NCBI RefSeq assembly: GCF_030269305.1
Contig: NZ_BSTC01000019.1
Location: forward strand, 1-64,000
DNA length: 64,000 bases
Direction: 5' to 3'
DNA from: Kineosporia sp. NBRC 101731
Lineage (GTDB): Bacteria > Actinomycetota > Actinomycetes > Actinomycetales > Kineosporiaceae
Positions 3,938-33,963 of this stretch are shown in pieces (position 1 is the first letter of the stretch; every line of letters begins with the position of its first letter). Under the pieces are notes generated by a model. That model made no database searches. It worked only from the letters and a program-made list of their open reading frames with translations, and was not told where the DNA came from. The position numbers and the translations under genes were made by a program.

Positions 3938-4537
3938 GGTTGAGTCACGCTCCGGTGTGTGGAACCCATGAGGACGCGCCCTCCTCCCGCGCCCGCACGT
4001 GCAGGGCCGGCCGAGGTTGCGTTTCCCCCATGGGAACGAGATTGCTGGTCGCTACTGGTGGTACTGGTCTTGCTGTCTTACGCCGAGGTGACGGTGCTCG
4101 CGCCCTGCACGTTCGAGGTCGTTGCTACCGGACTGTGGACCAACGCGTCCGGAGCCTGATTTGTGCCCGCTCTCGCGGCAGGGATTGTGCACCAGTCCAG
4201 CGCCGTTGGCCATCCCGCCACCCCGGGAGATCGCCACGAATTCCCGTCACTGTGCGGATGAGAGCTCACTGTCCGTCGCCAGACAGGGCCCCTAACGGGT
4301 GGTCGTCACGAAATGTTCCCGCACCGGTCGGCTCCCGGGGCCCTGGGACCTGTTACGACCACGGAGGGTAGAACGTAGAGTGGCAGGCGGTGCAGTGCGC
4401 CTCACCGACGACTCACGGCCTGTTCGCAGAACGTCGTCATCCGTGGGAAACACCATGCACCAGCGCCGGGTGGAGATGGCCCCCGTCGCCGAAGGGCTCG
4501 CCGGACACTGTTCGGGGGCGAGTGAGGGAGATAGCTC
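3938..4537. other. Intergenic region of 600 bases with no confident gene
   Basis: This stretch separates the DUF4193 start from the 76-aa gene, so promoters for both should lie here; none stands out. A forward frame beginning with GTG near 4380 ends at 4541 and overlaps the next ATG by ATGA, but its composition is not convincingly coding. Part of the region (4110-4300) shows weaker GC bias than neighbouring genes. Confidence 0.5.
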
Positions 4538-10439: not shown

Positions 10440-13079
10440 TCAGGAGGAGAGTTCGCGTCGGATCGTGTCGGAGCGTTCGGCCGGCCGGGACACCCGGATC
10501 ACGGCGTCGAGCACCGCGAGCCCGTTCCCGGCGACCACCACCGGGTTGAGTTCCAGCTCCGCCACCTCGGGCAGCTCGTCGGCCAGACAGGCGAGACGGC
10601 CGAGCACGTTCTCCAGGGCGGGCACGTCGACCGGCTCGGCTCCCTGGTGGCCGAAGAGCTTCGGTGCGGCCCGTACCGAGCGCACCAGGTCGGAGACGTC
10701 CACGGTGGTCAGCGGCGGGATGCGGTGGGCGATGTCGCCGAGCAGGCCGCTCGCGTCGCCCCCCAGCCCGAACGAGACCACCGGGCCGAACAGCGGGTCC
10801 TCCACCGTGCGCAGCACGCAGGCCACCCCCGGCTCGGACATGCTCTGCACCACCAGGTCACCACTGCCGAGCGTCGCCTGCATCTGGGCGAAGTCAGCCA
10901 TCAGCTCGGCCTCGTCCTCGATGTTGAGCCGTACTCCCCCGAGGTCGACGCGGTGACGCAGATGGGGCGCGGTGGTCTTGAGCACCACCGGGTACCCGCT
11001 CTGACGCGCGGCCGCGGCGGCCTCCGCCGCTGTGGTCACCGGGGTCCGCGGCCAGAGATCGATGCCGAAGGCCTTCAGGAGTTTCGCCGAGGCCCCGGGG
11101 TCGAGGGTGGTGCTGTCCTGGCCGGGGGACGCGGCCAGCGCCTGCGCCACCACGGCCCGCGCGCCGGCCAGGTCGAGGTCGTCCGGGTCGAACCGCTCCC
11201 CCGGGTCACGACGGCGCCAGCGGGCGTACCACTCGGCCTTCGCCAGGGCCCTCACCGCCTCCTCGGGCGTCGGGTACGACGGGATCAGACGTGGGTTGGA
11301 CAGGGCCCGGTTCACCCCGTGCACGCCGAGGAAACACGCGGCCACCGTGATGTCGGGCGCCTGGGCGGACACCTCGGACAGGGCCCGGGCCACCTCCCCG
11401 GCCTCGGTGGCGATGGGCGGGATGAACGCGGCCACCACCGACTGCACGCCCTCGGCGGCGAACGCCTCGGTGAGGGCGGCCCGGAACTGGGCCGGGTCGG
11501 CCTGGGGGTGCAGGGCGACGGGCTTGTGGACGACGACCAGCCCGGCCGCTACGCACCCGTCCGCGATCAGGGTGCTGAGGGCGTCACTGTTGCCGACGAT
11601 GGCCACGTTGGGCCCGGCGGGCAGCGGCTGGTTCATCACCAGCTGGGCCACGTCGAGCATCTCGGCCACGGTCTGCACCCGGATACAGCCCGACTGCCGC
11701 AACATGGCATCGAACGCCTCCCGCGGCGCCGTACTCGCACGCACCGAATGCCCGGGCGGCACGCCGAAACTCGACAGGCCGGACTTCAGCACGATGACCG
11801 GCTTGGACCGGGCCAGGCGCCGGGCGATGCGGGAGAACTTGCGCGGGTTGCCGAAACTCTCCAGGTACAGGCCCACGGCGTCGGTGCCCGCGTCCTCCTC
11901 CCAGTACTGCATGCAGTCGTTGCCGGAGACGTCGGCGCGGTTACCGGCGGACAGGAACGTGGACACGCCCAGACCTCGCCGCTCGACCGCGTCGAGCACC
12001 GCCACGGCCAGCCCACCGGACTGCGAGAACAGGCCCAGACGGCCCTCTTCCGGCAGGGCGGGAATGAGCGAGACGTTCAGGCGCACGGCCTTGCCGGCAT
12101 TGATCAGGCCCCACGAGTTCGGCCCGACCACGCGCATGCCGTGAGAACGCGCCAGCCGCACCAGTTCCCGCTGGCGGGTCAGGCCCTCGTCGCCGGTCTC
12201 GGCGAAACCGCTGGATAAAACCACTATTCCGCGCACGCCGTGCTCGGCGCACTCTCGCACCACGTCGAGCACACCCTCGGCCGGGATGGCGACCAGAGCC
12301 AGGTCGACCGGACCCTCGATGTCGCGCAGGCTCTTCACGGTGGCCAGCCCGAGCAACTGGTCCGCCTCCTGGTGCACCACGTGCAGGGTGCCGGTGAAGC
12401 CGCCCGCGATGATGTCTTCCAGCAGCCGGTGCCCGACGGTCGCCACGCGGCGGCTCGCGCCGATCAGCACCACCGAGGAGGGGTTGAGCAGCCGCTCCAT
12501 GCTGCGCGACTCGGCGCGGTGCTCCCGGGCCTCCATCACCGCCCGCGACCTCTCGGTCGGGTCGATGGTGAACCGCACCTCGATCACCCCGTCGTCGAAC
12601 CGCGAGGTCAGCTCGTACCCGGCGTCCTGGAACACGGTGATCATCTTGCGGTTGCGCGGCAGCACGTCGGCCACGAACCGGCGGATGCCGTTCTCCCGGG
12701 CGGCCGCGGCCAGATGCTCCAGCAGCACCGAGCTGATGCCCCGGCCCTGATGCGCGTCGCTGATGTTGAACGCGACCTCGGCGGCGTCGGAGCCGGCGTC
12801 GAGCCGGTCGTAGCGGCCCACGCCCACGATGTCGTCGCCGAGTACCGCGATCAGGGCCACCCGGTCGGCGTGGTCGACATTGGTGAAGTGATGCAGGTCG
12901 CGCGGGGACAGCCGGGGCATCGGCGCGAAGAACCGCAGATAGATCGATTCCGGCGACTGGTGCACGTGGAATCGCTGTAACGCGTCGGCGTCGTCGGCCG
13001 TGATCGGGCGCAGATGGGCCGTCGCACCGTCCCGCAGTACGACGTCCGCTTCCCAGTGCAGGGGGTAGTCCCGGGCCAT
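10440..13079 (-). CDS. GNAT / NDP-forming acyl-CoA synthetase fusion (PatA-like)
   Basis: An 879-aa fusion. Residues 1 to about 165 are a GNAT acetyltransferase with the acetyl-CoA loop HQGRGISSVLLEHL. Residues from about 185 form the acyl-CoA synthetase (NDP-forming) CoA-binding part, with a catalytic-type histidine in GVPPGHSVRAS, followed by a C-terminal ATP-grasp domain (GASAKLLKAFGI, GYPVVLKTTAP). This order, acetyltransferase first, is the actinobacterial form of Pat, which acetylates lysines in acyl-CoA synthetases and other proteins in response to acetyl-CoA. The synthetase half is usually non-catalytic in such fusions, so it is probably a sensor. Confidence 0.88.
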   Translation of the reverse strand: MARDYPLHWEADVVLRDGATAHLRPITADDADALQRFHVHQSPESIYLRFFAPMPRLSPRDLHHFTNVDHADRVALIAVLGDDIVGVGRYDRLDAGSDAAEVAFNISDAHQGRGISSVLLEHLAAAARENGIRRFVADVLPRNRKMITVFQDAGYELTSRFDDGVIEVRFTIDPTERSRAVMEAREHRAESRSMERLLNPSSVVLIGASRRVATVGHRLLEDIIAGGFTGTLHVVHQEADQLLGLATVKSLRDIEGPVDLALVAIPAEGVLDVVRECAEHGVRGIVVLSSGFAETGDEGLTRQRELVRLARSHGMRVVGPNSWGLINAGKAVRLNVSLIPALPEEGRLGLFSQSGGLAVAVLDAVERRGLGVSTFLSAGNRADVSGNDCMQYWEEDAGTDAVGLYLESFGNPRKFSRIARRLARSKPVIVLKSGLSSFGVPPGHSVRASTAPREAFDAMLRQSGCIRVQTVAEMLDVAQLVMNQPLPAGPNVAIVGNSDALSTLIADGCVAAGLVVVHKPVALHPQADPAQFRAALTEAFAAEGVQSVVAAFIPPIATEAGEVARALSEVSAQAPDITVAACFLGVHGVNRALSNPRLIPSYPTPEEAVRALAKAEWYARWRRRDPGERFDPDDLDLAGARAVVAQALAASPGQDSTTLDPGASAKLLKAFGIDLWPRTPVTTAAEAAAAARQSGYPVVLKTTAPHLRHRVDLGGVRLNIEDEAELMADFAQMQATLGSGDLVVQSMSEPGVACVLRTVEDPLFGPVVSFGLGGDASGLLGDIAHRIPPLTTVDVSDLVRSVRAAPKLFGHQGAEPVDVPALENVLGRLACLADELPEVAELELNPVVVAGNGLAVLDAVIRVSRPAERSDTIRRELSS

Positions 13080-13807: not shown

Positions 13808-13893
13808 CCAGTTTTCTGTCAATCCTGTCAGAGGCGACTACCAGGATTCCCGCCCGGTCCTGCCAGGAAGCACCGGCAGAGTTCTTCTCACGA

Positions 13894-13910
13894 CAGCGAA
13901 ACAGTCGCTG
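13894..13910 (+). promoter_or_regulatory. Leader hairpin 1, upstream of basic peptide gene 1
   Basis: CAGCGA and TCGCTG pair around AACAG, 23 bases before the ATG. The flanking sequence from about 13862 is nearly identical to that before peptide gene 2, beginning CCAGGAA and running through AGAGTTCTTCTCAC. Confidence 0.7.
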
Positions 13911-13933
13911 GCACAACAACTGAGGAGTCAGAC

Positions 13934-14053
13934 ATGGCGAAGATCCTGAAGGCCCGCAAGCGTCGTCCGGTCGCCAGGCCGCAGGCGCCGGCCCAGCGTC
14001 GCGAGCAGGAGAACACCACCCCGCAGGACCCCGCCCGGGGCGAGCAGCGCTGA
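13934..14053 (+). CDS. Small basic peptide 1 (MAKILKARKRRPV family)
   Basis: A 39-aa peptide starting MAKILKARKRRPV, with a GAGGAG ribosome site 7 bases upstream. The first 13 residues are identical to peptide 2; the rest (Gln/Arg/Pro-rich) differs. There is no cysteine and no membrane segment. I do not recognise the family. The identical N-terminus and conserved untranslated leader point to duplication. A nucleic-acid- or ribosome-binding role would suit the charge, and export by the downstream ABC transporter is another possibility; both are inference. Confidence 0.65.
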   Translation: MAKILKARKRRPVARPQAPAQRREQENTTPQDPARGEQR

Positions 14054-14085
14054 GGCACCCGCGGCGCGAGTCACACGCGTCGTGC

Positions 14086-14120
14086 GGGGCCGGCGGGCAC
14101 CACGTGTACCCGCCGGCCCC
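14086..14120 (+). terminator. Hairpin after small peptide gene 1
   Basis: Twelve-base GC-only arms (14086-14097 and 14109-14120) flank an 11-base loop. There is no T tract, so it may be a partial terminator or a transcript stabiliser. Confidence 0.5.
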
Positions 14121-14299
14121 GCCGGGGCGGCTCACCGACACGCAACGTGACCACCCGGCCCGTACACCCCTGACCCCTGCGCCCCTCCACTTGACCGGCC
14201 CATCCTCGTTATCCGCGTGAATGTGGTTGCGCTCGTAGGTTTTCCACAGTGATCACTGGTGTCTATTGCCAGGAAAGATCAGCAGAGTTCTTCTCACGG

Positions 14300-14316
14300 C
14301 GGCGAAACATTCGCTG
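14300..14316 (+). promoter_or_regulatory. Leader hairpin 2, upstream of basic peptide gene 2
   Basis: CGGCGA and TCGCTG pair around AACAT, with one G-T wobble compared with hairpin 1. It lies 23 bases before the ATG, exactly the spacing of hairpin 1. Confidence 0.7.
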
Positions 14317-14339
14317 CCACAACCACGAAGGAGCCAGAC

Positions 14340-14453
14340 ATGGCGAAGATCCTGAAGGCCCGCAAGCGTCGTCCCGTCGAGAAGCCGCTGCCGAAGAAGC
14401 ACAAGAAGGAGCTGCAGCCGCAGCCGGAGCAGGGCCCCGAACCGCGGGACTGA
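14340..14453 (+). CDS. Small basic peptide 2 (MAKILKARKRRPV family)
   Basis: A 37-aa peptide. Residues 1-13 match peptide 1 exactly; the tail EKPLPKKHKKELQPQPEQG is Lys/Pro/Gln-rich and unrelated. The ribosome site AAGGAG lies 6 bases upstream. The duplicated block covers about 110 bases (13862-13973 against 14269-14380), including leader and first codons. A strong terminator follows, so it can be expressed alone. The constant N-terminus with variable tail resembles precursor peptides, but there are no Cys, Ser or Thr to modify in the tail and no maturation enzyme nearby. Confidence 0.7.
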   Translation: MAKILKARKRRPVEKPLPKKHKKELQPQPEQGPEPRD

Positions 14454-14489
14454 TCCGGTCGCCGGCGCCGATCTCGCCCTCGGCAGGCC

Positions 14490-14535
14490 GGGGCCGGTGG
14501 ACACCTCAGGTGTCCACCGGCCCCGCCGGATTTTG
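14490..14535 (+). terminator. Intrinsic terminator after peptide gene 2
   Basis: Perfect 17-base arms (14490-14506 and 14508-14524) form a long GC stem and are followed by ATTTTGT. This is the clearest intrinsic terminator in the window and separates peptide 2 from the transporter transcript. Confidence 0.85.
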
Positions 14536-14614
14536 TCTCCCGGTCGGGCGGACCGGTCAAAGGCCGCTCCCAGCAAGCGATCGGCCACCGGTCAGGCCGG
14601 ACCGGGAGGATGAC

Positions 14615-14629
14615 CAGCAAAAGTTGCTG
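14615..14629 (+). promoter_or_regulatory. Leader hairpin 3, upstream of the Arg-rich mini-ORF
   Basis: CAGCAA and TTGCTG pair around AAG, 24 bases before the ATG. Compared with hairpins 1 and 2, base pair 5 changed on both strands (G-C to A-T), which supports selection on the stem. Confidence 0.6.
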
Positions 14630-14653
14630 TCCCGAAAACCGAAGGAGCTCGTC

Positions 14654-14698
14654 ATGGTCAAGGCCCGTCCCGCACGTCACCGGCGTGCAGTGACCTGA
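14654..14698 (+). CDS. 14-residue Arg-rich mini-ORF leading the ABC transporter gene
   Basis: The frame MVKARPARHRRAVT has a good ribosome site (GAAGGAG, 7 bases upstream), five arginines, one lysine and one histidine in 14 residues. Its stop lies 7 bases before the ABC transporter ATG, which has no ribosome site of its own, so transporter translation probably depends on this frame. It shares the leader hairpin with peptides 1 and 2 and a similar Lys-Ala-Arg core. It is either a true third member or a leader peptide that controls the transporter. Confidence 0.5.
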   Translation: MVKARPARHRRAVT

Positions 14699-14705
14699 TC
14701 CGCCC

Positions 14706-16607
14706 ATGACCACAACAGATTTCGACGATTCCGAGGCCGGGGACGACTCGGCCCGGCTGAGCTGGCCCGCGGTGCTGCGCCGGTTCTGGCCCCTGACCCG
14801 TGGGCGGCGCCTGGCCGTCGGGGGCGCGCTGATCTTCTACACCGCGGCGGTGATCGGCGACGCGGTCGGCGTCGAGCTGCTGGCCACCCTGATCGACGGC
14901 GCGGTCGAGAACGGCAGTCTGAAAGAGTTCTGGCACCCGGCCGGACTCTGGGCCGCCATCACCCTGGGCGCCGCCCTGCTCACCTACCTCGGTTCGGTGC
15001 TCACCGCGTCCGCCGCCGAGCAGTTCAGCCGGCGCCTGCGCGCCCGCACCCACGACCACCTGCTCACCGTGGCCCCCGAGGAACTCGACCGCCGCCGCCT
15101 CGGCGACGTGCTCTCCCGGGTGGTCGACGACACCGAGGAGGTGGAGCACCTGGTGGTCACCGGCCTGCTCGACGCCGCCTGCTCGATCCTGGCGGTGATC
15201 GTGTTCGGGGTGGCCGCGTTCCGCCAGAGCTGGCTGCTGGCACTGGTGGTCGTCGCCGCGGCCCCCGTGCTCTGGCTGCTCAACCGCTGGCTGACCGGGC
15301 GTACCCACCAGGTGTCGATGCGCACCCGGATCGCCCACGGCGAGCTCACCTCCGCCCTGGAGCAGAGCCTGACGAACTCGGCCCTGGTGCAGGCCTACAA
15401 CGGGCAGCGCAACGAGCACAGCCGGCTGGCCACCGTCTCGGGCCGGCTGATGCGCGCCCGGCTACGCCAGACCCGGCTGGCCGCGGTGCAGGGCCCGCTC
15501 ACCGAACTCGTCGAGATGGGAGGGCTTCTCGCCGTCATCGGGATCGGTGTCTACGACATCTCACGGGGCGGGCTGACCACCGGCGGGTTGCTGGCCTTCA
15601 CCGCGTACCTGACCTACCTGTACCCGCCGATCACCGCGGTCGGGCGGCTCGGCCTCACCGCCGCCTCGTCCGGTACCAGCGCGGCCCGGCTGACAGAACT
15701 ACTCGACCTGCGGCCCGCCGTGACCCAGGCCCGGGCCGACGGCGCCCTGCTGCTGCCCGCCCAGGCCTGTCTGCCGGCCTCGACCGGGCCGCTGCAGTCG
15801 GGTCTGCTGATCGAGGACGTCACCGTGCACTCCCCCGGCCGGGCCGACCGGCTGCACGACGTTCGCCTGTGGATCCCGCCGGGCGCCCTGGTGATGGTCA
15901 CCGGGCCGAGCGGCGCGGGGAAGTCGACGCTGGTCGAGCTGCTCGTGCGCTTCCGCGACCCGGACCGCGGGAGAGTACTGCTGGACGGGCGCGATCTGCG
16001 GGACTATCCGCTCAGCGAACTACGCAACCAGGTGACCCTGCTGCCCCAGGAACCCTTCATGTTCGACGAGAGCGTGCGCGAGAACATCACCTACGGCGTT
16101 CCCGACGACCCCGGCACCGGGGCTATCACCCTGGCGGCGCGGGACAGCGGCGCGGCCGAGTTCCTCGATCGTCTGCCCGACGGCCTGGCCACCCAGGTCG
16201 GCCAGCGCGGCCGGGCCCTGTCCGGTGGGCAGCGGCAACGGATCGCGCTGGCCCGGGCACTGCTGCGGGAAGGACCGGTCCTGGTGCTCGACGAGCCGAC
16301 CACCGGCCTGGACCCGGAGGCCGCCGGTCACCTGATCGGCACCCTGCGGCTGCTGACGGCCCGGGGTCGCACCGTGCTGCTCGTCACGCACGACCTGGAA
16401 CTGACCCGTTACGCCGATCAGGTGATCGAGCTGAGGGCCGGTCAGGTGCACCGCACGGTCGTGGCGCCGGAGGCCGCCACCCGGCCGATCGACCAGGGAC
16501 GGTCGGGACCGCACCGGAGCCGGGCCGAGCGCATCCGTTCCGAACGCGCCCGATCGCATCGGGCCGAGACGATCAGGGCCGAGACGATCAGGGCGGAGCA
16601 CAGCTGA
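14706..16607 (+). CDS. ABC exporter, fused permease and ATPase
   Basis: A 633-aa half-transporter of the lipid/drug/peptide exporter type. A six-segment permease spans about residues 35-320, with the coupling-helix region VAPEELDRRRLGDVLSRVVDD. The ATPase carries Walker A GPSGAGKST (400-408), LSGGQRQR (505-512) and Walker B VLVLDEPT (525-532). No protease or C39 domain precedes the permease. The C-terminal 45 residues are Arg-rich and contain a 15-bp direct repeat encoding AETIR twice. Only one subunit is encoded, so it must homodimerise. The substrate is unknown; the upstream small basic peptides are candidates by position only. Confidence 0.88.
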   Translation: MTTTDFDDSEAGDDSARLSWPAVLRRFWPLTRGRRLAVGGALIFYTAAVIGDAVGVELLATLIDGAVENGSLKEFWHPAGLWAAITLGAALLTYLGSVLTASAAEQFSRRLRARTHDHLLTVAPEELDRRRLGDVLSRVVDDTEEVEHLVVTGLLDAACSILAVIVFGVAAFRQSWLLALVVVAAAPVLWLLNRWLTGRTHQVSMRTRIAHGELTSALEQSLTNSALVQAYNGQRNEHSRLATVSGRLMRARLRQTRLAAVQGPLTELVEMGGLLAVIGIGVYDISRGGLTTGGLLAFTAYLTYLYPPITAVGRLGLTAASSGTSAARLTELLDLRPAVTQARADGALLLPAQACLPASTGPLQSGLLIEDVTVHSPGRADRLHDVRLWIPPGALVMVTGPSGAGKSTLVELLVRFRDPDRGRVLLDGRDLRDYPLSELRNQVTLLPQEPFMFDESVRENITYGVPDDPGTGAITLAARDSGAAEFLDRLPDGLATQVGQRGRALSGGQRQRIALARALLREGPVLVLDEPTTGLDPEAAGHLIGTLRLLTARGRTVLLVTHDLELTRYADQVIELRAGQVHRTVVAPEAATRPIDQGRSGPHRSRAERIRSERARSHRAETIRAETIRAEHS

Positions 16608-33851: not shown

Positions 33852-33963
33852 CGACCGCGCTTGCTGTCGCAACTGCGACGGCCTGGTCATCACCCGGGGC
33901 ACCCCACCGCGGAACGAGGGTTGCCGACCAGCAAGCCGGGGCTTGTCGCTGGTACTCATGACC
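33852..33963 (-). promoter_or_regulatory. SAM-IV riboswitch upstream of metY-metX
   Basis: The reverse strand starts GGTCATGAGTACCAGCG and continues with CAAGCCCCGGCTTGCTGG, CGGCAACCCTCG, CCGCGGTGGGGTGCCCC and GGGTGATGACC, closing P1, then GTCGCAGTTGCGAC and CAGCAAGCGCGGTC. This order matches the SAM-IV aptamer known from actinobacteria. Past its end, a hairpin GTCGAC-N4-GTCGAC overlaps the last aptamer bases, and two more hairpins (33808-33825 and 33781-33805) lie before the metY ribosome site; they are the likely expression platform. Confidence 0.9.

Follow-up and report, generated by a model that had tools for sequence, protein, structure and literature searches.

In Kineosporia sp. NBRC 101731, a member of a genus of soil bacteria, genes for short peptides with a constant, basic head and variable tails lie upstream of a gene for an ATP-binding cassette (ABC) half-transporter. 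The module of peptide gene(s) plus one such exporter gene is self-contained, and our searches detected it in no genus but Kineosporia. The DNA analysed (the window) comprises 64,000 nucleotides, positions 1 to 64,000 of contig NZ_BSTC01000019.1 (assembly GCF_030269305.1; 8.26 Mb in 88 contigs). The comparison set consisted of six Kineosporia genomes (the window's own and G001–G005) and seven other genomes of the family. An earlier note on this DNA had described a cassette of constant head, variable tail and adjacent exporter and had compared it with peptide-export or immunity cassettes. The cassette is real, being present in all six Kineosporia genomes and occurring as a unit at a different locus in K. 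babensis; its function in export or immunity is putative. The components found in the window are as follows.

13827..13882, + strand: promoter-like array of unit 1, GTCA-N11-CAG-N19-CAG-N11-AGnnT (exact pattern match, constant spacing).
13894..13910, + strand: hairpin of unit 1, CAGCGA-AACAG-TCGCTG, ending 23 bases before the ATG (sequence, stem tests).
13934..14053, + strand: peptide gene 1, 39 amino acids (open reading frame, profile, codon statistics).
14084..14122, + strand: terminator-like hairpin downstream of peptide gene 1, lacking a T run (hairpin scan).
14247..14288, + strand: promoter-like array of unit 2, a variant whose CAG boxes stand 23 apart and which lacks GTCA at the usual position, followed by CAGAGT (spacing measurement).
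14300..14316, + strand: hairpin of unit 2, CGGCGA-AACAT-TCGCTG, ending 23 bases before the ATG (sequence, stem tests).
14340..14453, + strand: peptide gene 2, 37 amino acids (open reading frame, profile, codon statistics).
14489..14535, + strand: intrinsic-terminator-like hairpin followed by ATTTTG, downstream of peptide gene 2 (hairpin scan).
14556..14611, + strand: third copy of the promoter-like array, upstream of the third frame and the ABC gene (exact pattern match).
14615..14629, + strand: hairpin of unit 3, CAGCAA-AAG-TTGCTG, ending 24 bases before the ATG (sequence, stem test).
14654..14698, + strand: third frame, 14 amino acids, MVKARPARHRRAVT, a probable remnant of a peptide head that has lost its tail, and a putative translational link to the ABC gene (profile rank, substitutions).
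14706..16607, + strand: ABC exporter half-transporter, 633 amino acids (ABC_membrane and ABC_tran), with no peptidase domain (domain scans, solved relatives).

The two full-length peptides of the window share MAKILKARKRRPV exactly, as the earlier note had read. A profile search of the six Kineosporia genomes (150 candidates scored per genome) identified 13 strong copies with expectation values (E) below 1e-12, the next match being at 0.46. Two copies each were found in the window's genome, G002 and G004, five in G003, and one each in G001 and G005. All 13 adjoin orthologues of the ABC gene, and up to four peptide genes precede one exporter. The peptides are 36–40 residues long and share a near-invariant, basic head, M[AT][KR]I[LI]K[ANP]R[KHDT]RRP[VA] (MAKILKARxRRP[VA] in short form), whose net charge is +4 to +6. 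In the tails, P, Q, E, K, R, D, N and A account for 0.79–0.96 of the residues; aromatic residues and Cys are absent from all 13 peptides, and 10 peptides end in RD and one more in RDN.

The head is under purifying selection, because its raw ratio of non-synonymous to synonymous differences (pN/pS) is 0.42 over all pairs of the 13 peptides (uncorrected for relatedness), and in two close full-length pairs of equal length it shows no non-synonymous change at all, with the tails changing. GC content at the third codon positions ranges from 0.89 to 1.00 across the 13 genes. Unit 1 of the window and that of K. mesophila have nearly identical leaders and heads, very different tails, and ABC proteins that are 95% identical; recombination among the head repeats would be a simple explanation. 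We considered diversifying selection acting on the tails but did not retain it: one pair shows 7 non-synonymous and 0 synonymous changes and another 7.5 and 3.5, and the first of these is not significant (∼0.19, by arithmetic from site counts).

Neither of the window's two full-length peptides (39 and 37 amino acids), the two that were scanned, matched any entry of Pfam, NCBIfam or PADLOC. Of the 13 peptides, one matched PHROGs, at E 0.48, and the 13-row profile found no match in PDB. Across 394 genomes of the class, including the window's own (19 candidates scored per genome), nothing convincing was found outside the genus (best outside E, 0.006), and the cassette is undescribed in the open-licence literature as searched.

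The ABC protein contains PF00664 (E 1.5e-33) and PF00005 (E 1.4e-31) in one chain, and a C39 peptidase domain is not among the 19 Pfam families listed for it at E up to 1. The best 60 of its 246 solved relatives include ABCB-type exporters (ABCB1), MsbA, Sav1866 and the yeast a-factor exporter. It is therefore an ordinary ABCB/MsbA-type chain with no named equivalog among the 25 NCBIfam models shown, since all of these scored below their curated cut-offs (e.g. MsbA, 311.7 vs. 602). PADLOC matches (mad3, E 2.2e-32, and others) were rejected as a sign of a defence role, because they cover the generic ATPase part. The C-terminal tail of the exporter (16400–16607 of the window) is repetitive and arginine-rich (RAERIRSERARSHRAETIRAETIRAE) and strongly variable among the seven copies.

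Orthologues 72–95% identical to the ABC protein of the window occur in all six Kineosporia genomes, with two copies in G003 and thus seven in all. The second, tandem copy in G003 (locus L034, 7871–9988) has its own peptide gene and is 81% identical to the window's protein, vs. 77% for the first copy. Among the seven other genomes of the family, four contain only matches of 33–37% identity and three contain no match at E 1e-60. Relatives of the membrane domain in named genomes were confined to Kineosporia (K. mesophila, K. babensis and K. rhizophila; 3 loci of 131 pattern candidates, the window's own genome perhaps being omitted). In G001–G004, the cassette occupies the same chromosomal place as in the window. 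In K. babensis, it lies on another contig, adjoining genes that were read as thiamine-synthesis genes, and the usual site is empty, only 169 bases separating the nitroreductase gene (ending at 4226 of locus L100) from the DUF456 gene (ending at 4056). Eleven genes of the window were compared with the cassette locus of K. babensis; the ABC gene alone is present there, along with its peptide gene.

A set of 15 leaders was assembled from the regions upstream of the peptide and exporter genes. In 12 of them, the spacing GTCA-N11-CAG-N19-CAG-N11-AG-N2-T is constant. An alignment of 12 upstream regions has C7, A8, G9, A21, G22 and T25 among its unchanging columns. The three deviant leaders, two with CAG boxes 23 apart and one with AAG, all lack GTCA at its place. 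The exact phased pattern occurs at 12 sites in the six whole genomes, all within the cassette, and the reversed control yielded none; as the pattern was derived from these very leaders, the informative part is its absence elsewhere in the genomes. The element and a hairpin precede 11 of the 13 peptide genes (8 exact and 3 variant; the exceptions, G2_P2 and G3_P3, are each second in a pair), and they precede the exporter or its short frame in four of seven cases, the exporter following a peptide gene directly in the other three. In G004, the leader is followed immediately by the exporter start codon, without an intervening peptide frame, a leader copy also lies upstream of the exporter in G005, and the pattern lies upstream of a short frame and the ABC gene in the window and G002. 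The A and T kept in the hexamer nAGnnT are those that matter most in a −10 box. From this likeness, the mRNA start would lie close before the hairpin, and the conserved leader looks mainly like a promoter. The leader hairpins to which the earlier note had drawn attention are thus retained as one downstream hairpin, but most of the leader conservation fits a promoter architecture.

In the window, the three stems end 23, 23 and 24 bases before the ATG and differ by a wobble pair and a double change, exactly as had been claimed. A stem of 4–8 pairs was found at the equivalent place in all 14 leaders tested (5′ arm placed by hand), G3_P4 having been omitted because it is identical to G3_P2 in that stretch. 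Shuffling gave p values of 0.0004 to 0.11, below 0.05 for 11 of the 14, which are not independent because the rows are related. The loops comprise 4–8 bases in this test and 3–8 as first placed. In a 7-row alignment, 5 of 12 pairs change on both sides (3 in this hairpin and 2 in another upstream of it), and 89.3% of the cells pair, compared with 83.3% after shuffling (the observed value was reached in 1 of 500 shuffles) and 29–54% in slid controls. The main compensatory changes are those of G004_P1, G005_P1, G003_P5, the ABC leader of G005 and the third leader of the window. Together with the pairing above shuffles, they uphold the contention of the earlier note that conservation extends beyond the sequence to the stem itself, though the independent events are few. 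RNAalifold, run on a MAFFT alignment, missed the downstream hairpin that the hand-placed test and the 7-row alignment of mostly equal loops detected, which we attribute to loops of unequal length and misalignment of the 3′ arm; when the arms were folded in isolation, several leaders favoured shifted or differently closed pairing. The upstream hairpin, CTGCC-N10-GGCAG, was predicted by RNAalifold and kept in the RNA leader model, but two of the phased boxes coincide in part with its arms, which for this reason are probably DNA sites rather than an RNA structure.

The RNA leader model found 13 strong sites in the six genomes, all in the cassette and 7 of them its own training rows, and the next-best matches within the genus had E values of 0.0013 and 0.0038. 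Across 296 genomes of the class, including the window's own (15 candidates scored per genome), nine other genomes were matched at E 0.005 (best, 3e-4), none convincingly, and none of nine loci inspected among these matches has the phased pattern. One of the candidate loci, L093, has a 93-codon frame starting with MAK after the RNA match, but was discarded as a homologue, this frame lying inside an 826-codon open frame; the locus contains no SGGQ motif.

A strong hairpin also lies downstream of 11 of the 13 peptide genes, the other two (G2_P1 and G3_P2) leading straight into a second peptide gene. It is followed by TTTT in seven of the eight places that precede another leader copy and lacks TTTT in all three that lead straight into the ABC gene. 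A hairpin with TTTT thereby closes 7 of the 11 leader-headed peptide units and was seen in five of the six genomes (not in G001). In K. rhizophila (L097, about 10700–10809, − strand) and G003 (L034, 5538–5620), the ABC frame as called starts over a sequence that in other units is the terminator-like hairpin, and this hairpin would here encode part of the first ∼25 ABC residues (DAQAxAGGHLxV...GPAG).

The third frame, which according to the earlier note starts with MVKARP, is indeed present and its leader bears the full phased pattern, but it is the weaker case and probably a relic. Aligned ungapped with the heads, it has M-x-K-x-x-x-A-R-H-R-R-x-V in common with them, and it ranks third of the 3,727 13-mers that begin with a start codon in the window when scored with the head profile (21.5, vs. 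20.3 for the fourth). Its leader scores only 13.8 bits (E 0.039) in the RNA model. Among six loci scanned, the frame is present only in the window and K. mesophila, with one non-synonymous and three synonymous differences between the two. The frame has a good Shine-Dalgarno sequence, and the ABC frame starts, as had been noted, 7 bases after its stop codon, at 14706, without a clear one. We infer that the frame is probably a tail-less relic of the head that couples translation to the exporter gene.

We prefer, tentatively and at less than even confidence, an explanation in which the ABC protein exports the peptides and recognizes them by their constant head. The phased element would act as the promoter of the peptide units and the exporter, and each peptide would be a gene product in itself. 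Under the same control, the exporter would recognize the head and carry the peptides out of the cell, so that the tail could drift. Translation of the third frame in the window would feed into the exporter start codon. Export is the simplest reading of the co-occurrence, the joint second locus, the common upstream element and the fixed head with varied tails.

Several observations weigh against export. The tails contain only 0–2 hydrophobic residues (I, L, V, M or F), unlike membrane-active bacteriocins, and no peptidase, modification or immunity gene was recognized beside the cassette among the neighbours classified; the lack of hydrophobic and aromatic residues and of a recognized processing gene is the reason for our low confidence. 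ABCB-type exporters mostly move small or lipidic substrates. The basic head would suit binding to nucleic acid or the ribosome equally well, the conserved tail length and final RD do not look like unconstrained drift, and the hairpin of unit 1 in the window is the sole one before another leader copy to lack a T run.

Precursors of ribosomally synthesized and post-translationally modified peptides (RiPPs) and double-glycine precursors served by peptidase-containing ABC transporters (PCATs) have a conserved N-terminal and a variable C-terminal part with the exporter adjacent. The Kineosporia peptides resemble them in constant head, variable tail and neighbouring exporter; in contrast, they have no double-glycine site, Cys or aromatic tail residue, and no C39 peptidase domain was recognized in the exporter and no modifying enzyme among the neighbours classified. 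Leaderless bacteriocin operons of Actinomycetota are similar in encoding cationic peptides that are short and have no separate leader, in some cases in multiple copies, with ABC transport genes (PMC11580447). The peptides described there, however, have a mean length of 50, are more hydrophobic, contain tryptophans and have PH-domain proteins nearby, whereas those of Kineosporia are shorter and free of aromatic residues and Cys, with no PH-domain neighbour recognized; none of the 13 has the features given there for aureocin A53-like bacteriocins.

The main alternative, possible though somewhat less likely than export, is that the peptides stay inside the cell as arginine-rich RNA- or ribosome-binding peptides, whose head may bind the leader hairpin and thereby autoregulate peptides and exporter, the exporter moving some other compound. 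The charge of the head, the lack of aromatic residues and the hairpin kept with compensatory changes upstream of both peptides and exporter are consistent with such binding, and the N peptide of phage P22 (NAKTRRHERRRKLAIERDT) illustrates hairpin binding by a short arginine-rich segment (PMC11480772). The likeness to N and its boxB lies in charge and position: no sequence homology was found by profile or PDB searches (PHROGs as above), and the loop differs from the P22 boxB shown in that paper. Moreover, proline 12 would break a helix, the loop ranges from 3 to 8 bases, two of the 13 peptide genes have no leader, and tail diversity and tandem copies are unexplained by autoregulation.

It is improbable that the short frames are cis-acting leader peptides, on whose basic heads stalled ribosomes would control transcription or translation of the exporter, the regulatory set that the earlier note gave as its main alternative. 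The model would be BmrB-BmrC/BmrD of Bacillus subtilis, in which one leader peptide, with a terminator within its coding region, controls the exporter in cis (PMC4191407). As there, an ABC exporter is immediately preceded by a small open reading frame with stem-loops. In three of seven cases this frame is a peptide gene, and a strong hairpin separates it from the ABC gene or lies where the ABC frame begins; in the window, the 14-amino acid frame stops 7 bases before the ABC start. Such control would fit only the last frame before the exporter and is conceivable for those three exporters. Unlike the Bacillus system, Kineosporia has up to four peptide genes per exporter, and a single transcript with a ribosome-controlled terminator between is not the general rule, as judged from the sequence: 7 of 11 leader-headed units end in their own hairpin and TTTT and only 3 run into the exporter. 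Full-length tails of conserved length are retained, and the exporters of G004 and G005 have leader copies directly upstream, that of G004 with no peptide frame at all. These leaders and terminators favour trans-acting gene products over cis-acting leader peptides.

Very unlikely is a riboregulator that hides the Shine-Dalgarno sequence through the conserved TTCTTCTC block. Pairing probabilities of 0.60 or more were obtained in 9 of the 11 leaders with this CT block, but only 3 of them stand out from shuffled blocks (4% or less), any CT-rich block will pair with a Shine-Dalgarno sequence, 4 of 15 leaders lack the block, and it sits where the promoter reading places the transcription start. That the frames are decaying, functionless copies, as the short third frame and the copy number of 1 to 5 per genome could suggest, is hardly credible in view of the third-position GC content, the purifying selection on the head, the exact phased pattern in six of six genomes and the hairpin with TTTT in five.

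Export and hairpin binding could also be combined, although we regard this as a long shot: in an undescribed two-component system, the arginine-rich head would both address diversifying hydrophilic tails to the dedicated ABC exporter and bind the hairpin common to most of its mRNAs, balancing synthesis and export in a mobile module with its own promoter class.

The window cassette is flanked by a nitroreductase gene and a DUF456 gene, both assigned by Pfam, and by two genes named from their translations, one acyl-CoA synthetase-like and the other parE-like. In K. rhizophila, a frame between the nitroreductase gene and the cassette (L097, 11124–11696, − strand) resembles, by its translation, a fragment of a metal-chelate-type substrate-binding protein. 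Elsewhere in the window, a SAM-IV riboswitch (106.6 bits) lies at 33852–33963 on the − strand.

Short genes of this kind are easily overlooked by annotation. Selection, synteny, the joint second locus and the cassette-specific upstream pattern all argue that the frames are genes belonging with the exporter. If the peptides are exported, they would represent a type of secretion that dispenses with the customary leader, peptidase and hydrophobic core; in the case of RNA binding, they would be host-encoded autoregulatory peptides tied to a transporter.

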